Of a stretch of 64,000 nt of DNA, positions 1,277 to 36,454 are shown one piece after another (position 1 is the first letter of the stretch; every line of letters starts with the position of its first letter). The stretch covers positions 1,736,001 to 1,800,000 of the forward strand of contig NZ_CP096032.1 in NCBI RefSeq assembly GCF_023115425.1. The letters are read 5' to 3'. The notes under the pieces are model-generated. The model made no database searches. It was not told the DNA's origin and saw nothing but the letters and a program-made list of their open reading frames with translations. Origin of the DNA: Synechococcus sp. A10-1-5-1. GTDB taxonomy: Bacteria; Cyanobacteriota; Cyanobacteriia; PCC-6307; Cyanobiaceae. The position numbers were made by a program, and so were the translations under genes.

Positions 1277-1666
1277 ATGGGTCTGCACTATCCCGATGAC
1301 TGCCGCTATTCCGAGAGTCACGAGTACGTGAAGTCCGAGGGGGAGCTGGTGCGCGTCGGCATCAGCGCCTTTGCGGTTGATCAGTTGGGCGACATCGTCT
1401 TCGTTGAATTGCCGGAGGTGGGAGCGAGCCTGACCCAGGGCTCCAGCTTCGGTTCGGTGGAGTCGGTGAAGGCGGTGGAGGACATGCTCTGCCCCATTGA
1501 TGGGACGGTGGAGGCCCGCAATGAGGCGGTCCTGGCCAGCCCCGAAGAACTGCAGAACGATCCCTATGGAGAGGGTTGGTTGCTCTTGCTGCGCCCCTCG
1601 GCTCCGGCCCAGGTCGATGGCTTGATGGATGCGGCCAGCTACGGCGCCAAGGTCGACGGCAACTGA
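1277..1666 (+). CDS. gcvH: Glycine cleavage system H protein
   Basis: This is the lipoyl carrier protein that shuttles the aminomethyl group between the P, T and L proteins of the glycine cleavage system. In cyanobacteria the system serves the photorespiratory C2 cycle and one-carbon supply. It is 129 residues, the normal family length. The lipoyl-attachment lysine is K65 within ESVKAVED, and the N-terminal part [16 protein letters not shown] is typical. The ATG at 1277 is the only sensible start. Its stop overlaps the gcvP start (TGATG at 1664-1668), so the two are probably translationally coupled and made in matched amounts. No gcvT or glycine riboswitch is visible in the window. Confidence 0.97.
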
Positions 1667-4593
1667 TGGATTTGAGCGCCTTTGTTCAGCGCCACATCGG
1701 CCCCACCCCCGCTGAGCAGCAGACGATGCTGCGGGATCTGGGGCTTGCTGATCTGGAGGCCCTGGTGCGCCAGGTGGTCCCAGAACCGATTCGCTTGGAG
1801 CCGGCCCAGGCCCTTGAGGGGTTGCCGGCTGGCTGCCACGAGGCCCAGGCCCTGGCGGAACTGGAGCAGATTGCGGCGGCGAACGAGGTGCGCCGTTCCT
1901 TCATTGGTCTGGGCTACTACGGCTGCATCACCCCGGCGCTGATTCAGCGCCATGTCTTTGAAAATCCCGCCTGGTACACCGCTTACACCCCTTATCAAGC
2001 GGAGATCAGCCAGGGGCGCCTCGAGGCACTTCTCAATTTCCAGACCCTGATCAGCGAGCTCACCGGCCTGCCGATCGCCAATGCCTCGCTGCTGGATGAG
2101 GCCACGGCAGCGGCCGAGGCCATGGCCCTGAGCCTGGGAGCCTGCCGCAACCGCAGTGCACGTCGTTTCCTGGTGGATGAGGCGGTGTTCCCTCAGACCT
2201 GGGCCGTCCTGCAGACCCGGGCCGAACCGCTGGAGCTGGAGCTGGAGCGGGTTAACCCTCAGGAGCTCCTGGAGCGGCCTGAGGCCTTCAGTGATGCCTT
2301 CGGACTGCTGCTGCAGTTGCCCGGTGCCTCCGGTGCGCTCTGGCACCCCGGTGCGGTGATCGCTGCCGCGCGGGCCGCTGGCGTGATCGTGACGGCGGCG
2401 GTGGATCCCTTGGCCCAGGTGCTGATGGCGCCGGTGGCCGAGTTGGGCGTTGAAATTGCGGTGGGAAGCACCCAGCGCTTGGGTATCCCCTTGGGCTTTG
2501 GCGGGCCCCATGCGGCCTTCTTTGCCACCACCCCCACCCACCAGCGCAAGATTCCGGGCCGTTTGGTGGGGCAGTCCGTGGATGCCGAGGGCCATCCGGC
2601 GTTGCGCTTGGCTCTGCAGACCCGTGAGCAGCACATTCGCCGGGACAAGGCCACTAGCAACATCTGCACCGCCCAGGTTCTGCTGGCGGTGATGGCCAGC
2701 TTCTATGCGGTGCATCACGGCCCCGACGGCCTGACGGCGATCGCCCGGCGCTTGGTGTTGCAGCGGGAGCTGCTGCGACGCGGGCTCGAGGCCCTGGGGC
2801 ATCCCCCCGAGCTAGCCCCTGGCCTGGACACCCTGAGGGTGCGCTGCTCCGAGGCGCCGGAATTGATTGCCCGGGCCGCGGCGGCGGGCTTCAATCTGCG
2901 CCCCGAGGCCGATGGCTTTGCCATCAGCCTCGATGAGTTGAGCGACCTCGATGAGCTGCAACGGCTGCTCTCAGCCTTGGCGGCCCTGCCACAAACGGCG
3001 CCGGATCTGGCGCGACTGGAGCACACCCTGCTGCAGGAGAGCCAGGGACAACCCATTGAAGACCGTCTGTGGGGGACCCTGGTGCCCCGTCGCACGCGTC
3101 CTTGGCTCCAGCAACCGGTGTTCCATCGCTACCGCAGCGAGACCGAGTTGCTGCGCTACATCCAGCGGTTGGTCTCCAAGGACTTTTCCTTGGTCCACGG
3201 CATGATTCCGCTAGGGAGCTGCACGATGAAGCTCAATGCCGCGGCGGAGCTGCTGCCGGTGAGCTGGCCGGGGTTTGCCGGTCTGCATCCGTTCGCTCCG
3301 GCCCACCAGAGCGCGGGCTACCGCCGTTTGGTGGCCGATCTTGAGCATTGGTTGGCGGCCATCACCGGTTTTGCCGGGGTGTCCCTGCAGCCCAATGCCG
3401 GATCCCAAGGGGAGTACGCCGGCTTGCTGGTGATTCGCGCTTATCACCGCAGCCGCGGCGATGAGCAGCGCCGGGTCTGTCTGATCCCAACCAGTGCCCA
3501 TGGGACTAACCCCGCCAGCGCTGTGATGGCTGGCTTGAAGGTGGTGGCCGTGGCCTGCGATGGCCAGGGGAACATCGATCGGGCTGATCTGCAGGCCAAG
3601 GTCGAAGCCCACAAGGATGAGTTGGCGGCCCTGATGGTCACCTATCCCTCCACCCACGGGGTGTTTGAAGAGGGCATCCGCGAGATCTGCGCGTTGGTGC
3701 ATGCGCACGGCGGTCAGGTGTATCTCGATGGCGCCAACCTGAACGCCCAGGTGGGCCTGGCTAAGCCCGGGGCCTATGGAGCCGATGTCTGCCACCTGAA
3801 CCTGCACAAGACCTTCTGCATTCCCCATGGCGGAGGCGGACCAGGGGTGGGACCGATCGCTGTGGCCGCGCACCTGATGCCCTTCCTGCCCGGCCATCCC
3901 GCGGCTGAGGCCTGTGGGGGCGACCAGGCCATCGGTCCGGTGAGTGCAGCCCCGTGGGGCAGCGCCAGCATTCTTCCGATCAGCTGGATGTACATCCGGA
4001 TGATGGGCGGGGCTGGCCTGCGCCAAGCGAGTGCCGTGTCCCTCCTGGCCGCCAATTGGCTGGCCCATCAGTTGGAGGATCACTTTCCAGTGCTCTATCG
4101 CGGCCAATCCGGACGGGTGGCCCATGAATGCATCTTTGATTTACGCCCGCTGAAGCGCAGTGCCGGCTTGGAAGTCGATGACCTCGCCAAGCGCCTGATG
4201 GACTACGGCTTCCATGCCCCCACGGTGAGTTGGCCGGTGGCCGGCACGGTGATGGTCGAGCCCACAGAAAGCGAGGGTTTGGCGGAGTTGCAGCGCTTCT
4301 GCGATGCGCTGGTCGCGATCCGCGCTGAGGCTGCGGCGATTGAGTCGGGAGCGATGGATCCTGAGAACAATCCCCTCAAACGTGCGCCCCATACGTTGTC
4401 AGCGGTCACAGCTGATGTTTGGGACCGTCCCTATAGCCGTCAGCAGGCGGCATACCCCCAGGGAGAGGAGCATCACCAGGGCAAGCTTTGGCCGGCGGTG
4501 GCTCGCATTGATAACGCCTTTGGTGATCGCAACCTGGTCTGTACTTGCCCATCGGTTGAGGAAATGGCCGTTTCATCGCCAACGGCTGCTTGA
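1666..4593 (+). CDS. gcvP: Glycine dehydrogenase (decarboxylating), P protein of glycine cleavage
   Basis: This is the PLP enzyme that decarboxylates glycine and passes the aminomethyl group to lipoylated GcvH. At 975 residues it is the fused, homodimeric form found in cyanobacteria, proteobacteria and mitochondria rather than the split alpha/beta form. The N-terminus FVQRHIGP is typical. The PLP lysine is K715 in [17 protein letters not shown], and [10 protein letters not shown] lies in the C-terminal catalytic half. I place the start at the ATG overlapping the gcvH stop. A longer frame begins at 1576 but would run through gcvH coding sequence. About 115 AT-richer bases separate it from the next gene. 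Confidence 0.97.
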
Positions 4594-35147: not shown

Positions 35148-35534
35148 ATGTCTGCCACAACCGACCAAATTCTCGAGCAGCTGAAGTCCCTCTCCCTGCT
35201 GGAAGCCTCTGAGCTTGTCAAGCAGATCGAAGAGGCCTTCGGTGTGTCCGCCGCCGCTTCTGCTGGCGTCGTGATGGCTGCCCCCGCCGCTGGCGGTGCT
35301 GCTGAAGCTGCTGAAGAGAAGACCGAGTTCGACGTCCACCTCGAGGGCTTCGACGCTGCCGCCAAGATCAAGGTCCTCAAGGCCGTCCGCGAGGCCACCG
35401 GCCTGGGTCTGGGCGAAGCCAAGGCTCTTGTCGAAGGCGCTCCTTGCAACGTCAAGGAAGGCGTTTCCAAGGCCGACGCTGAAGCGATGAAGAAGTCCAT
35501 CGAAGAGGCCGGCGGCAAGGTCTCCCTCAAGTGA
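35148..35534 (+). CDS. rplL: Ribosomal protein L7/L12
   Basis: This is the multicopy acidic stalk protein that recruits translation factors. It is 128 residues: the N-terminal dimerisation helices ([20 protein letters not shown]), an Ala/Gly-rich hinge (about 40-60) and the C-terminal domain with [20 protein letters not shown] and [15 protein letters not shown]. Strong terminator sequence follows, closing the ribosomal block. Confidence 0.98.
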
Positions 35535-35575
35535 TCCCGCCGTGGGCTGCCTCGGCGGCCCACTCCTTCAACGCA

Positions 35576-35602
35576 GCCGGCCCTTTCGGGGGCCGGTTTT
35601 TT
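35576..35602 (+). terminator. Rho-independent terminator of rplJ-rplL
   Basis: CCGGCCC (35577-35583) pairs with GGGCCGG (35590-35596), followed directly by six Ts (35597-35602). It ends the plus-strand ribosomal transcript. Confidence 0.9.
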
Positions 35603-35625
35603 GTGTGCAGCGGTTGCTGAGCAAT

Positions 35626-35721
35626 AAAAAAGCCCCGCCGAAGGCAGGGCTTTGAGCCGGAACGCTTCTGGGAGTCTGTCCTCGTTTCGACCCCGGAAGT
35701 GGTGTTCCGCACTCCTCACAC
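35626..35721 (-). ncRNA. Candidate small RNA of about 96 nt, complementary to the Yfr1 motif
   Basis: Read on the minus strand, a TATGGT box (complement of 35727-35732) is placed to start a transcript near 35721. The transcript would begin GTGTGAGGAGTG. A long hairpin follows: CGGAAC/GTTCCG plus CTTCCGGG/CCCAGAAG (35658-35709), with a purine-rich loop containing CGAAACGAGGACAG. Four bases later a second hairpin, GCCCTGCC/GGCGGGGC, ends in six Ts (35626-35631). Hairpin plus terminator at about 95 nt is the build of picocyanobacterial sRNAs such as the Yfr2 group, but I cannot confirm membership. The first bases are the exact complement of CACTCCTCACAC (35710-35721 plus). It could also be the 3' end of the DUF3747 mRNA. 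Confidence 0.5.
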
Positions 35722-35726
35722 AGAAA

Positions 35727-35732
35727 ACCATA
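35727..35732 (-). promoter_or_regulatory. Possible -10 box for the candidate small RNA
   Basis: TATGGT on the minus strand matches the TAnnnT core of sigma-70-type -10 elements and ends six bases from the proposed RNA start at 35721. No good -35 is visible, as is common in picocyanobacteria. Confidence 0.35.
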
Positions 35733-35788
35733 CCGCTAGAGGAAAAGAGCAAGCCGCTGGTTCCGGCCGCTGTCTCAACTGTCCCTGA

Positions 35789-36454
35789 TCAGAATCGTGG
35801 CGTTTGCCCTCCGTAGGGGATGACCTGCAGGGCGATCGGGCCGCTGCCAGGACTGGTGCTCCCGTAGGCCGCCGGGGGGCGAGCTTGGTTGCGTTCCGCT
35901 TGGGCGATCAGTCCATCCAGGGGCTTGGGGTTGGCGAAATAGACGTGGCTCAGGCTGCGCTGGCCGTACATCCGCCGTTCGAGTTGCCAGCCGGGTTCCA
36001 GCTTGAGGGCCACAAAGCCGTCCCGGTCCCGTAGGGGAATCGCGCCACGGCCCACGACCAACTCCGTTGGGTGGCTGCCGGACATGGCCAGCAGCACCAG
36101 GGTGTTCCCTTGGCTCTCGAGCCGCAGGCGATAGCGGGGGGAGACATCGTCATCACCCACCCGTAGGGAATAGCCATTGCTGTCGAGGTAGCGGCTGCAG
36201 ATTCCGCTGAAGTTGAAGCGGTTCAGGGCCGGATCAATCAAGCCATCCCGCCGTTCCTCCCAGCACTTCGGCGCGGGCTTCAGCTGCTCCAGCACGAGCA
36301 ACTTCCATCCCTGGCTGCCCACCGGCTGTCCCAGCACGGCCAGGCGCTGTTGCTCGAGCGGTTGGCTTTGGAAGACCCCAGCTGCCGCTTGGCTGCCCAC
36401 CAAGCCTGCGCTCAGCAGAGCGAGACCCGCCCATGGGAGGTAGCTTCGCTGCAT
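35789..36454 (-). CDS. Exported DUF3747 domain protein
   Basis: It belongs to a cyanobacterial family of unknown function (DUF3747). It is 221 residues from the ATG at 36454. A signal peptide is clear (MQRSYLPWAGLALLSAGLVG, cleavage near SQAAA-GVF), so the protein is periplasmic or secreted. Family-like stretches are QPVGSQGWKLLVLEQLKPAPKCW, DPALNRFNFSGICSRYLDSNGYSLRV and LRLESQGNTLVLLA. The two cysteines (in PKCWEE and SGICSRY) could form a disulfide. The frame continues to 36535 but would then overlap the rnhA start; I rejected that extension. It is divergent from rnhA, with about 60 bases between. Confidence 0.88.
   Translation of the reverse strand: MQRSYLPWAGLALLSAGLVGSQAAAGVFQSQPLEQQRLAVLGQPVGSQGWKLLVLEQLKPAPKCWEERRDGLIDPALNRFNFSGICSRYLDSNGYSLRVGDDDVSPRYRLRLESQGNTLVLLAMSGSHPTELVVGRGAIPLRDRDGFVALKLEPGWQLERRMYGQRSLSHVYFANPKPLDGLIAQAERNQARPPAAYGSTSPGSGPIALQVIPYGGQTPRF

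Follow-up and report, generated by a model that had tools for sequence, protein, structure and literature searches.

The closest described systems to the locus reported here are the cyanobacterial small RNAs Yfr2 to Yfr5 and the RNAs with which they pair. A pairing between the 5' ends of Yfr2-5 and the RNAs Yfr1, Yfr10, Yfr12 and Yfr18 was proposed, in a duplex with one bulge and one mismatch, and three of these Yfr1-motif RNAs adjoin Yfr2, Yfr4 and Yfr5 (Steglich et al., 2008; PMC2518516). In MED4, it was shown by pull-down, GFP reporter and RNase E protection assays that Yfr2 binds Yfr1 and Yfr10 and lifts the repression by Yfr1 (Lambrecht et al., 2019; PMC6778093). In Nostoc, a gel shift of Yfr1 with Yfr2 was described together with a sequestration model (PMC6974561). 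The Cyano-1 family of Rfam (RF01701) has been equated with Yfr2 in words (PMC8400943), and yfr2 positions are described as not fixed (PMC1242208, PMC6778093). Our literature search found no work that treats Yfr2 together with rplL, and none that treats it together with Cyanobium.

In this study we analyzed a stretch of 64,000 nt from Synechococcus sp. A10-1-5-1 (the window), in which a sequence beside rplL is a copy of the known small RNA Yfr2 (Table 1). A sequence-only reading of this DNA had pointed to a minus-strand RNA that could bind Yfr1 as a target or sponge, and knew of no such partner of Yfr1. Binding is plausible, with a 5' end that complements Yfr1, but membership in Yfr2/Cyano-1 was missed. 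The partner role was put forward in 2008 (PMC2518516) and has been examined experimentally in MED4 (PMC6778093) and Nostoc (PMC6974561), so that the suggestion of a new Yfr1 partner does not hold. What is new here is the conserved rplL address of one yfr2 copy; the Yfr2-Yfr1 pairing itself is already in print.

Table 1. Features of the rplL-Yfr2 locus (positions in the window) and the Yfr1-motif candidate of genus g5 (loci of the genome sample)
Feature	Position	Strand	Basis or remark
Yfr2 (Cyano-1) small RNA gene	35626..35722	-	ends (~35721 to ~35626) inferred from -10-like box and terminator
-10-like box TATGGT	35727..35732	-	sequence
5' motif GTGTGAGGAGTG, exact complement of the Yfr1 motif	35710..35721	-	sequence
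Upper stem and loop GGGTCGAAACGAGGACAGACTCC, second conserved Yfr2 motif	35671..35693, limits approximate	-	alignment columns
Intrinsic terminator of the Yfr2 copy	35629..35653	-	11-pair stem and T tract
rplL terminator, convergent with the Yfr2 gene	35575..35598	+	10-pair stem and T tract
rplL (ribosomal protein L7/L12), conserved neighbour	35148..35534	+	ORF; TIGR00855, E 2.5e-44
DUF3747 protein gene, upstream of the Yfr2 gene, conserved neighbour, start codon uncertain	35789..36454	-	ORF; PF12565, E 5.5e-50
g5 Yfr1-motif RNA candidate	L249, L252, L253, L256, L257, L261		~75 nt

The Yfr1 12-mer CACTCCTCACAC occurs a single time in the window, at 35710-35721 of the plus strand. Among 100 dinucleotide shuffles of the window it was matched in one (mean 0.01), which agrees with the chance of about 1% estimated before. 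The minus strand carries a box, the complement of the 12-mer, an interrupted hairpin with a 12-nt loop GAAACGAGGACA and then a terminator. The Rfam search that the sequence-only reading had recommended gives RF01701 on the minus strand and RF01116, the Yfr1 family, on neither. The RF01701 match (35725-35656, 49.4 bits against a cut-off of 41) covers the model end to end, positions 1-69 of 69, and is the sole match above cut-offs in the whole window; a permissive scan of 35560-35800 gave no second family above its cut-off. RF01116 was unmatched in the window at its cut-off, and within 35560-35800 also when matches with E up to 1 were admitted. One of our sampled genomes is, as we take it, Prochlorococcus MED4, and in it the RF01701 model found all four published yfr2-yfr5 genes, each of the four starts lying 2 bases from the printed one. 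Because the model recovers these genes, Cyano-1 and Yfr2 are the same family, and the plus-strand motif is therefore the antisense of Yfr2.

The RNA of ~97 nt, for which ~96 nt had been suggested from the box and terminator that also define our ends, is predicted to fold with -43.5 kcal/mol (z -3.3), and none of 200 shuffles folded as well. Of the layout read earlier from the minus strand, the TATGGT box, the exact complement, the hairpin and the T-tract terminator stand; the stem is not 8+6 but is predicted as 4+6, then 4, then 3+3 pairs. The predicted fold has a long interrupted stem topped by the 12-nt central loop, and the short conserved single-stranded 5' stretch, that characterize Yfr2/Cyano-1, a family of abundant transcripts of ~80-95 nt. 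The motif bases GAGU are paired in it and about the first seven of the 12 are clearly free. Among relatives, 10 of the 15 predicted pairs show changes on both sides in at least one sequence, mostly pairs of the terminator and the loop base; the long basal stem is absent from the consensus fold of the relatives. A search of 35500-35850 gave no sigma-70 promoter that includes a -35 hexamer. The gene would be transcribed from its own minus-strand promoter, convergent to rplL, and the transcript would stop at its own terminator.

The genome is a single contig of 2.40 Mb, and the RF01701 scan found three Yfr2 copies in it, all with an exact Yfr1 complement. One true Yfr1 is present at C1:835338-835395 (RF01116, 59.3 bits), flanked by a guaB-type (GuaB3-family) gene and trxA; a position near trxA had been anticipated. 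The 11-mer ACTCCTCACAC occurs five times in the genome: three times as complements in the Yfr2 copies, once in Yfr1 and once unexplained. The last, at C1:357744 (L004), was rejected as an RNA gene, being without an RNA-family match and, by eye, without a terminator. It is probably a chance match, since roughly one such match is to be expected in each genome, and two were obtained with the reversed control pattern. A weak RF01116 match at C1:2103383 (L090), also without a terminator by eye, was left out. By its rplL-region DNA the genome is closest, among 32 named loci, to Cyanobium sp. E1_MAG_00006 (84.5% over 3.4 kb for the best-matching piece).

Other Yfr1-motif sequences were observed around copies 2 and 3. 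A candidate consisting of ATTCCTCACACCACCC and a terminator lies upstream of copy 2 on the same strand (L002, ~1645-1720, minus strand, around G000:C1:2358383-2358428). Three sister genomes have two such candidates beside copy 2, the second being divergent and in between; our genome keeps one and is missing the second. Another candidate is divergent from copy 3 (L003, ~1345-1415, minus strand) and is absent from the same place in two sister genomes. A conserved palindrome, ACTGGCAC(T/A)GTGCCAGT, is found ~20-40 nt upstream of the Yfr2 copies of the copy-2 class (L093, L094, L115, L002) and is a possible operator.

How could such a copy act on Yfr1? In the proposed mechanism the Yfr2 5' end GUGUGAGGAGUG would pair with CACUCCUCACAC, a largely single-stranded part of Yfr1 that Yfr10-like RNAs also have, and Yfr1 held in this way would be kept from its mRNA targets. 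The GUCGAAACGAGGA loop of Yfr2 may be a second, separate contact site, a role that we infer. Full-length RNAduplex, which ignores self-folding, did not separate Yfr1 from its shuffles (291 of 500 as good) and is thus uninformative, so that RNAcofold gains were computed instead. The gain for Yfr1 with the rplL-side copy is -15.4 kcal/mol against -6.7 +/- 2.9 for shuffled Yfr1 (5 of 300 as good), and it falls to -7.2 when UCCU of Yfr1 is mutated to AAAA. Copy 3 shows a smaller gain, -12.2 against -8.4 for the mutant; shuffles were run for the rplL-side copy. In the predicted fold of Yfr1 the first three motif bases are paired. On these predicted energies the rplL-side copy plausibly binds Yfr1. 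By analogy with relatives it would also be expressed and would sponge Yfr1 in Synechococcus sp. A10-1-5-1, and we hold it to be very probably a sponge whose 5' end captures Yfr1.

The address beside rplL was followed in 101 genomes of at least 90% completeness, drawn evenly from the window's family, which we take to be Cyanobiaceae. Yfr2 was found in 99 of them, Yfr1 (RF01116) in 88 and rplL in all 101; the Yfr2 rows of 13 genomes came from a supplementary scan. By model coordinates, Yfr2 lies 45-434 nt downstream of rplL, always antisense to it, in at least 63 genomes. In the remaining 38, inspection of the sequence that follows rplL brought in 14, and a looser loop pattern two more (G066 and G115), of which G066 is presumably Prochlorococcus MIT9313. 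In total, 79 of the 101 genomes, from 27 of 34 genera, have a Yfr2 copy shortly downstream of rplL and antisense to it. The 22 genomes without an rplL-linked copy fall in genera g8, g32, g6, g29, g22, g4, g2 and g13; g8 presumably holds MED4 and g6 SS120. In a separate sample of 25 genomes of the genus, 21 have Yfr2 (14 of 14 near-complete ones) and 24 have Yfr1, and 20 of the 29 Yfr2 copies, from 20 genomes, adjoin rplL. Among 20 picocyanobacterial rplL loci hand-picked from 80 named ones (about seven further picocyanobacterial loci lie outside this set), 13 have Cyano-1 antisense downstream of rplL above the cut-off and two fall just under it (40.9 and 39.9 bits); at five Prochlorococcus loci none was found at E up to 0.1.

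The neighbours of the gene are also kept. DUF3747 and RnhA both lie upstream in 28 of 30 rplL loci and RnhA alone in one, and the single locus without Yfr2 has neither. Since these genes travel with rplL and Yfr2, the fixed address may simply reflect the gene order of an ancestor. A fixed yfr2 address in 79 of 101 genomes contradicts the printed view of unconserved loci and lets orthologues be named. A further idea is that the rplL-linked Yfr2 is the ancestral core sponge and that its convergent place matters: read-through RNA from rplL would be fully antisense to Yfr2, would itself show the Yfr1 12-mer and could titrate the sponge, tying the Yfr1 regulon to growth rate. We consider this very unlikely.

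The sequence of the rplL-linked copies is strongly constrained. GTGAGG(A/G)G is present in 63 of the 63 copies found by the model; the other 16 were found by motif and are not independent evidence for it, so that the 63 are the ones that can count. Over all 79 copies the 12-mer GTGTGAGGAGTG is exact in 51, another 12 read GTGTGAGGGGTG, a form that preserves the duplex with a single G-U pair, and in 16 the motif is shortened or altered at one end. A TANNNT box at -20 to -4 before GTGAGG was found in 77 of the 79, against three in the control stretch from -42 to -26. In the genus sample GTGTGAGGAGTG is exact, by eye, in 25 of 29 Yfr2 copies. An alignment was made of 70 distinct rplL-linked copies out of 73 picked by pattern, and GTGAGG-GT, GGTCGAAAC and AGAC are invariant in all 70 rows; the picking pattern itself required most of GTGAGG, and GAAAC with AGGA, which inflates the loop conservation. 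Six rplL-linked copies missed by this pattern have AGGC instead of AGGA, and the AGGA part of the loop is therefore not invariant. The small RNA had been made to depend on conservation of motif and hairpin in sister genomes, and both are conserved, as is the place downstream of rplL that was to be compared. On the partner's side, the Yfr1 12-mer is present in 80 of the 83 Yfr1 sequences read, as is the 14-mer CACACTCCTCACAC (from 88 genomes with a match, five left out).

RF01116 was unmatched in 13 of the 101 genomes. One of these, G036, has the 11-mer between guaB and trxA (L248, ~1501), likely a divergent Yfr1 that RF01116 misses; no Yfr2 match was found there at E up to 0.05. In all of the other twelve, Yfr2 is matched at E up to 0.05, in six of them above the cut-off and in one very weakly (25.9 bits), and canonical Yfr1 is therefore not needed for Yfr2 to persist. 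In genus g5, where RF01116 was unmatched in all six sampled genomes, the six share an almost unchanged stretch in which the Yfr1 11-mer is preceded by a CATAAT box and followed by a terminator (Table 1). Neither guaB nor trxA lies near this stretch in the 3-kb loci, and the fold predicted for it from one of the genomes does not surpass those of shuffled sequences (z -0.6). On one side of this candidate, L257 has genes that encode a CPP1-like protein and Hsp33. The g5 Yfr2 reads GTGTGAGGAGTGTG in six of six. If Yfr2 decayed wherever Yfr1 disappears, its motif should be degraded in these genera, and this was seen only in part: g6 and g22 have an eroded leading GTG but keep GTGAGGAG, and g5 has the complete motif. 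A Yfr2 motif that is kept where Yfr1 is missing or replaced offers a natural test of the dependence of Yfr2 on Yfr1.

Yfr1-motif RNAs adjoining Yfr2 are already in print for Prochlorococcus (PMC6778093, PMC2518516). In our sample, Yfr1-motif candidates with terminators lie within 600 nt of nine of 74 Yfr2 loci, including copies 2 and 3 of our genome; the nine include orthologues and thus are not nine independent cases. By distance, 15 matches lie within 600 nt of Yfr2 and none at 600-1500 nt. The permuted-word control was not clean: its mean was 1.3 of 74 loci, but one of the 29 words, CCACTC, also reached nine of 74, and the comparison by distance gives the sharper contrast. The scan misses two more candidates that were seen by eye (L235, L243). 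In L112 and L116 (1426-1568) a Yfr1-motif candidate was observed convergent with a Yfr2 copy.

Other explanations of the locus have to be weighed against the sponge. One option is that this is a Yfr2 RNA whose main work concerns other targets or proteins, reached through the GGA-containing central loop, with Yfr1 pairing being secondary. In rows partly picked by a loop pattern, the loop and the 5' motif show about equal conservation, and Yfr2 is retained in genomes where the Rfam model matches no Yfr1. Yfr2 of MED4 has many other enriched targets, with 48% of the peaks being antisense (PMC6778093). A 2009 paper likened the GGA motifs to RsmA-titrating RNAs, with no RsmA/RsmE homologue found in cyanobacteria. 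However, the 5' motif is kept in its Yfr1-pairing form, the six g5 genomes, in which the Rfam model matches no Yfr1, contain a different candidate RNA with the Yfr1 motif, and very small amounts of Yfr2 already blocked the binding of Yfr1 to ppa in vitro (PMC6778093). We regard this option as rather unlikely.

Two further options take the plus strand, or no RNA at all, as the source of the signal. The exact 12-mer on the plus strand could by itself mark a second Yfr1 or a Yfr10-like RNA (row L001), but the RF01116 scans were empty there, and no terminator was found after the motif, as the sequence-only reading had also noted; the Rfam match and the terminator are both on the minus strand. This candidate was rejected and is extremely improbable. 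The two terminators that face each other at the locus could also be seen as a mere bidirectional terminator between convergent genes, with the Yfr1 match arising by chance; indeed, a 2005 screen has an entry, conserved between MIT9313 and WH8102, that it describes as a 'possible bi-directional terminator of the rplKAJL operon'. A full-length RF01701 match and the conservation of the -10-like box, the motif and the loop speak against it, and we give it next to no credence. The genome that we take to be MIT9313 has a Yfr2-like sequence downstream of rplL, and from this the 2005 entry may have been Yfr2. The reading that we prefer is thus a Yfr2 sponge for Yfr1.

By comparing this copy with the known systems, its place among them can be described. 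With Yfr2-Yfr5 and Cyano-1 (RF01701) it has in common the 5' motif of the GTGTGAGGAG type, the GAAAC-loop hairpin, the 3' terminator, several copies per genome and an own -10-like box. It differs in that its Yfr1 complement runs gap-free over 12 bases, whereas the pairing of the MED4 Yfr2 has a bulge and a mismatch, and in that its locus recurs in most of the genera sampled, whereas the yfr2 loci in the papers are not conserved. Yfr1 (RF01116) has the complement of the 12-base motif, which here lies on the opposite strand of a locus that RF01116 does not match. The motif and terminator scan found no Yfr1-motif candidate beside the rplL-side copy, and candidates similar to the Prochlorococcus Yfr10, Yfr12 and Yfr18, which are Yfr1-motif RNAs beside Yfr2 genes, adjoin copies 2 and 3 of the same genome.
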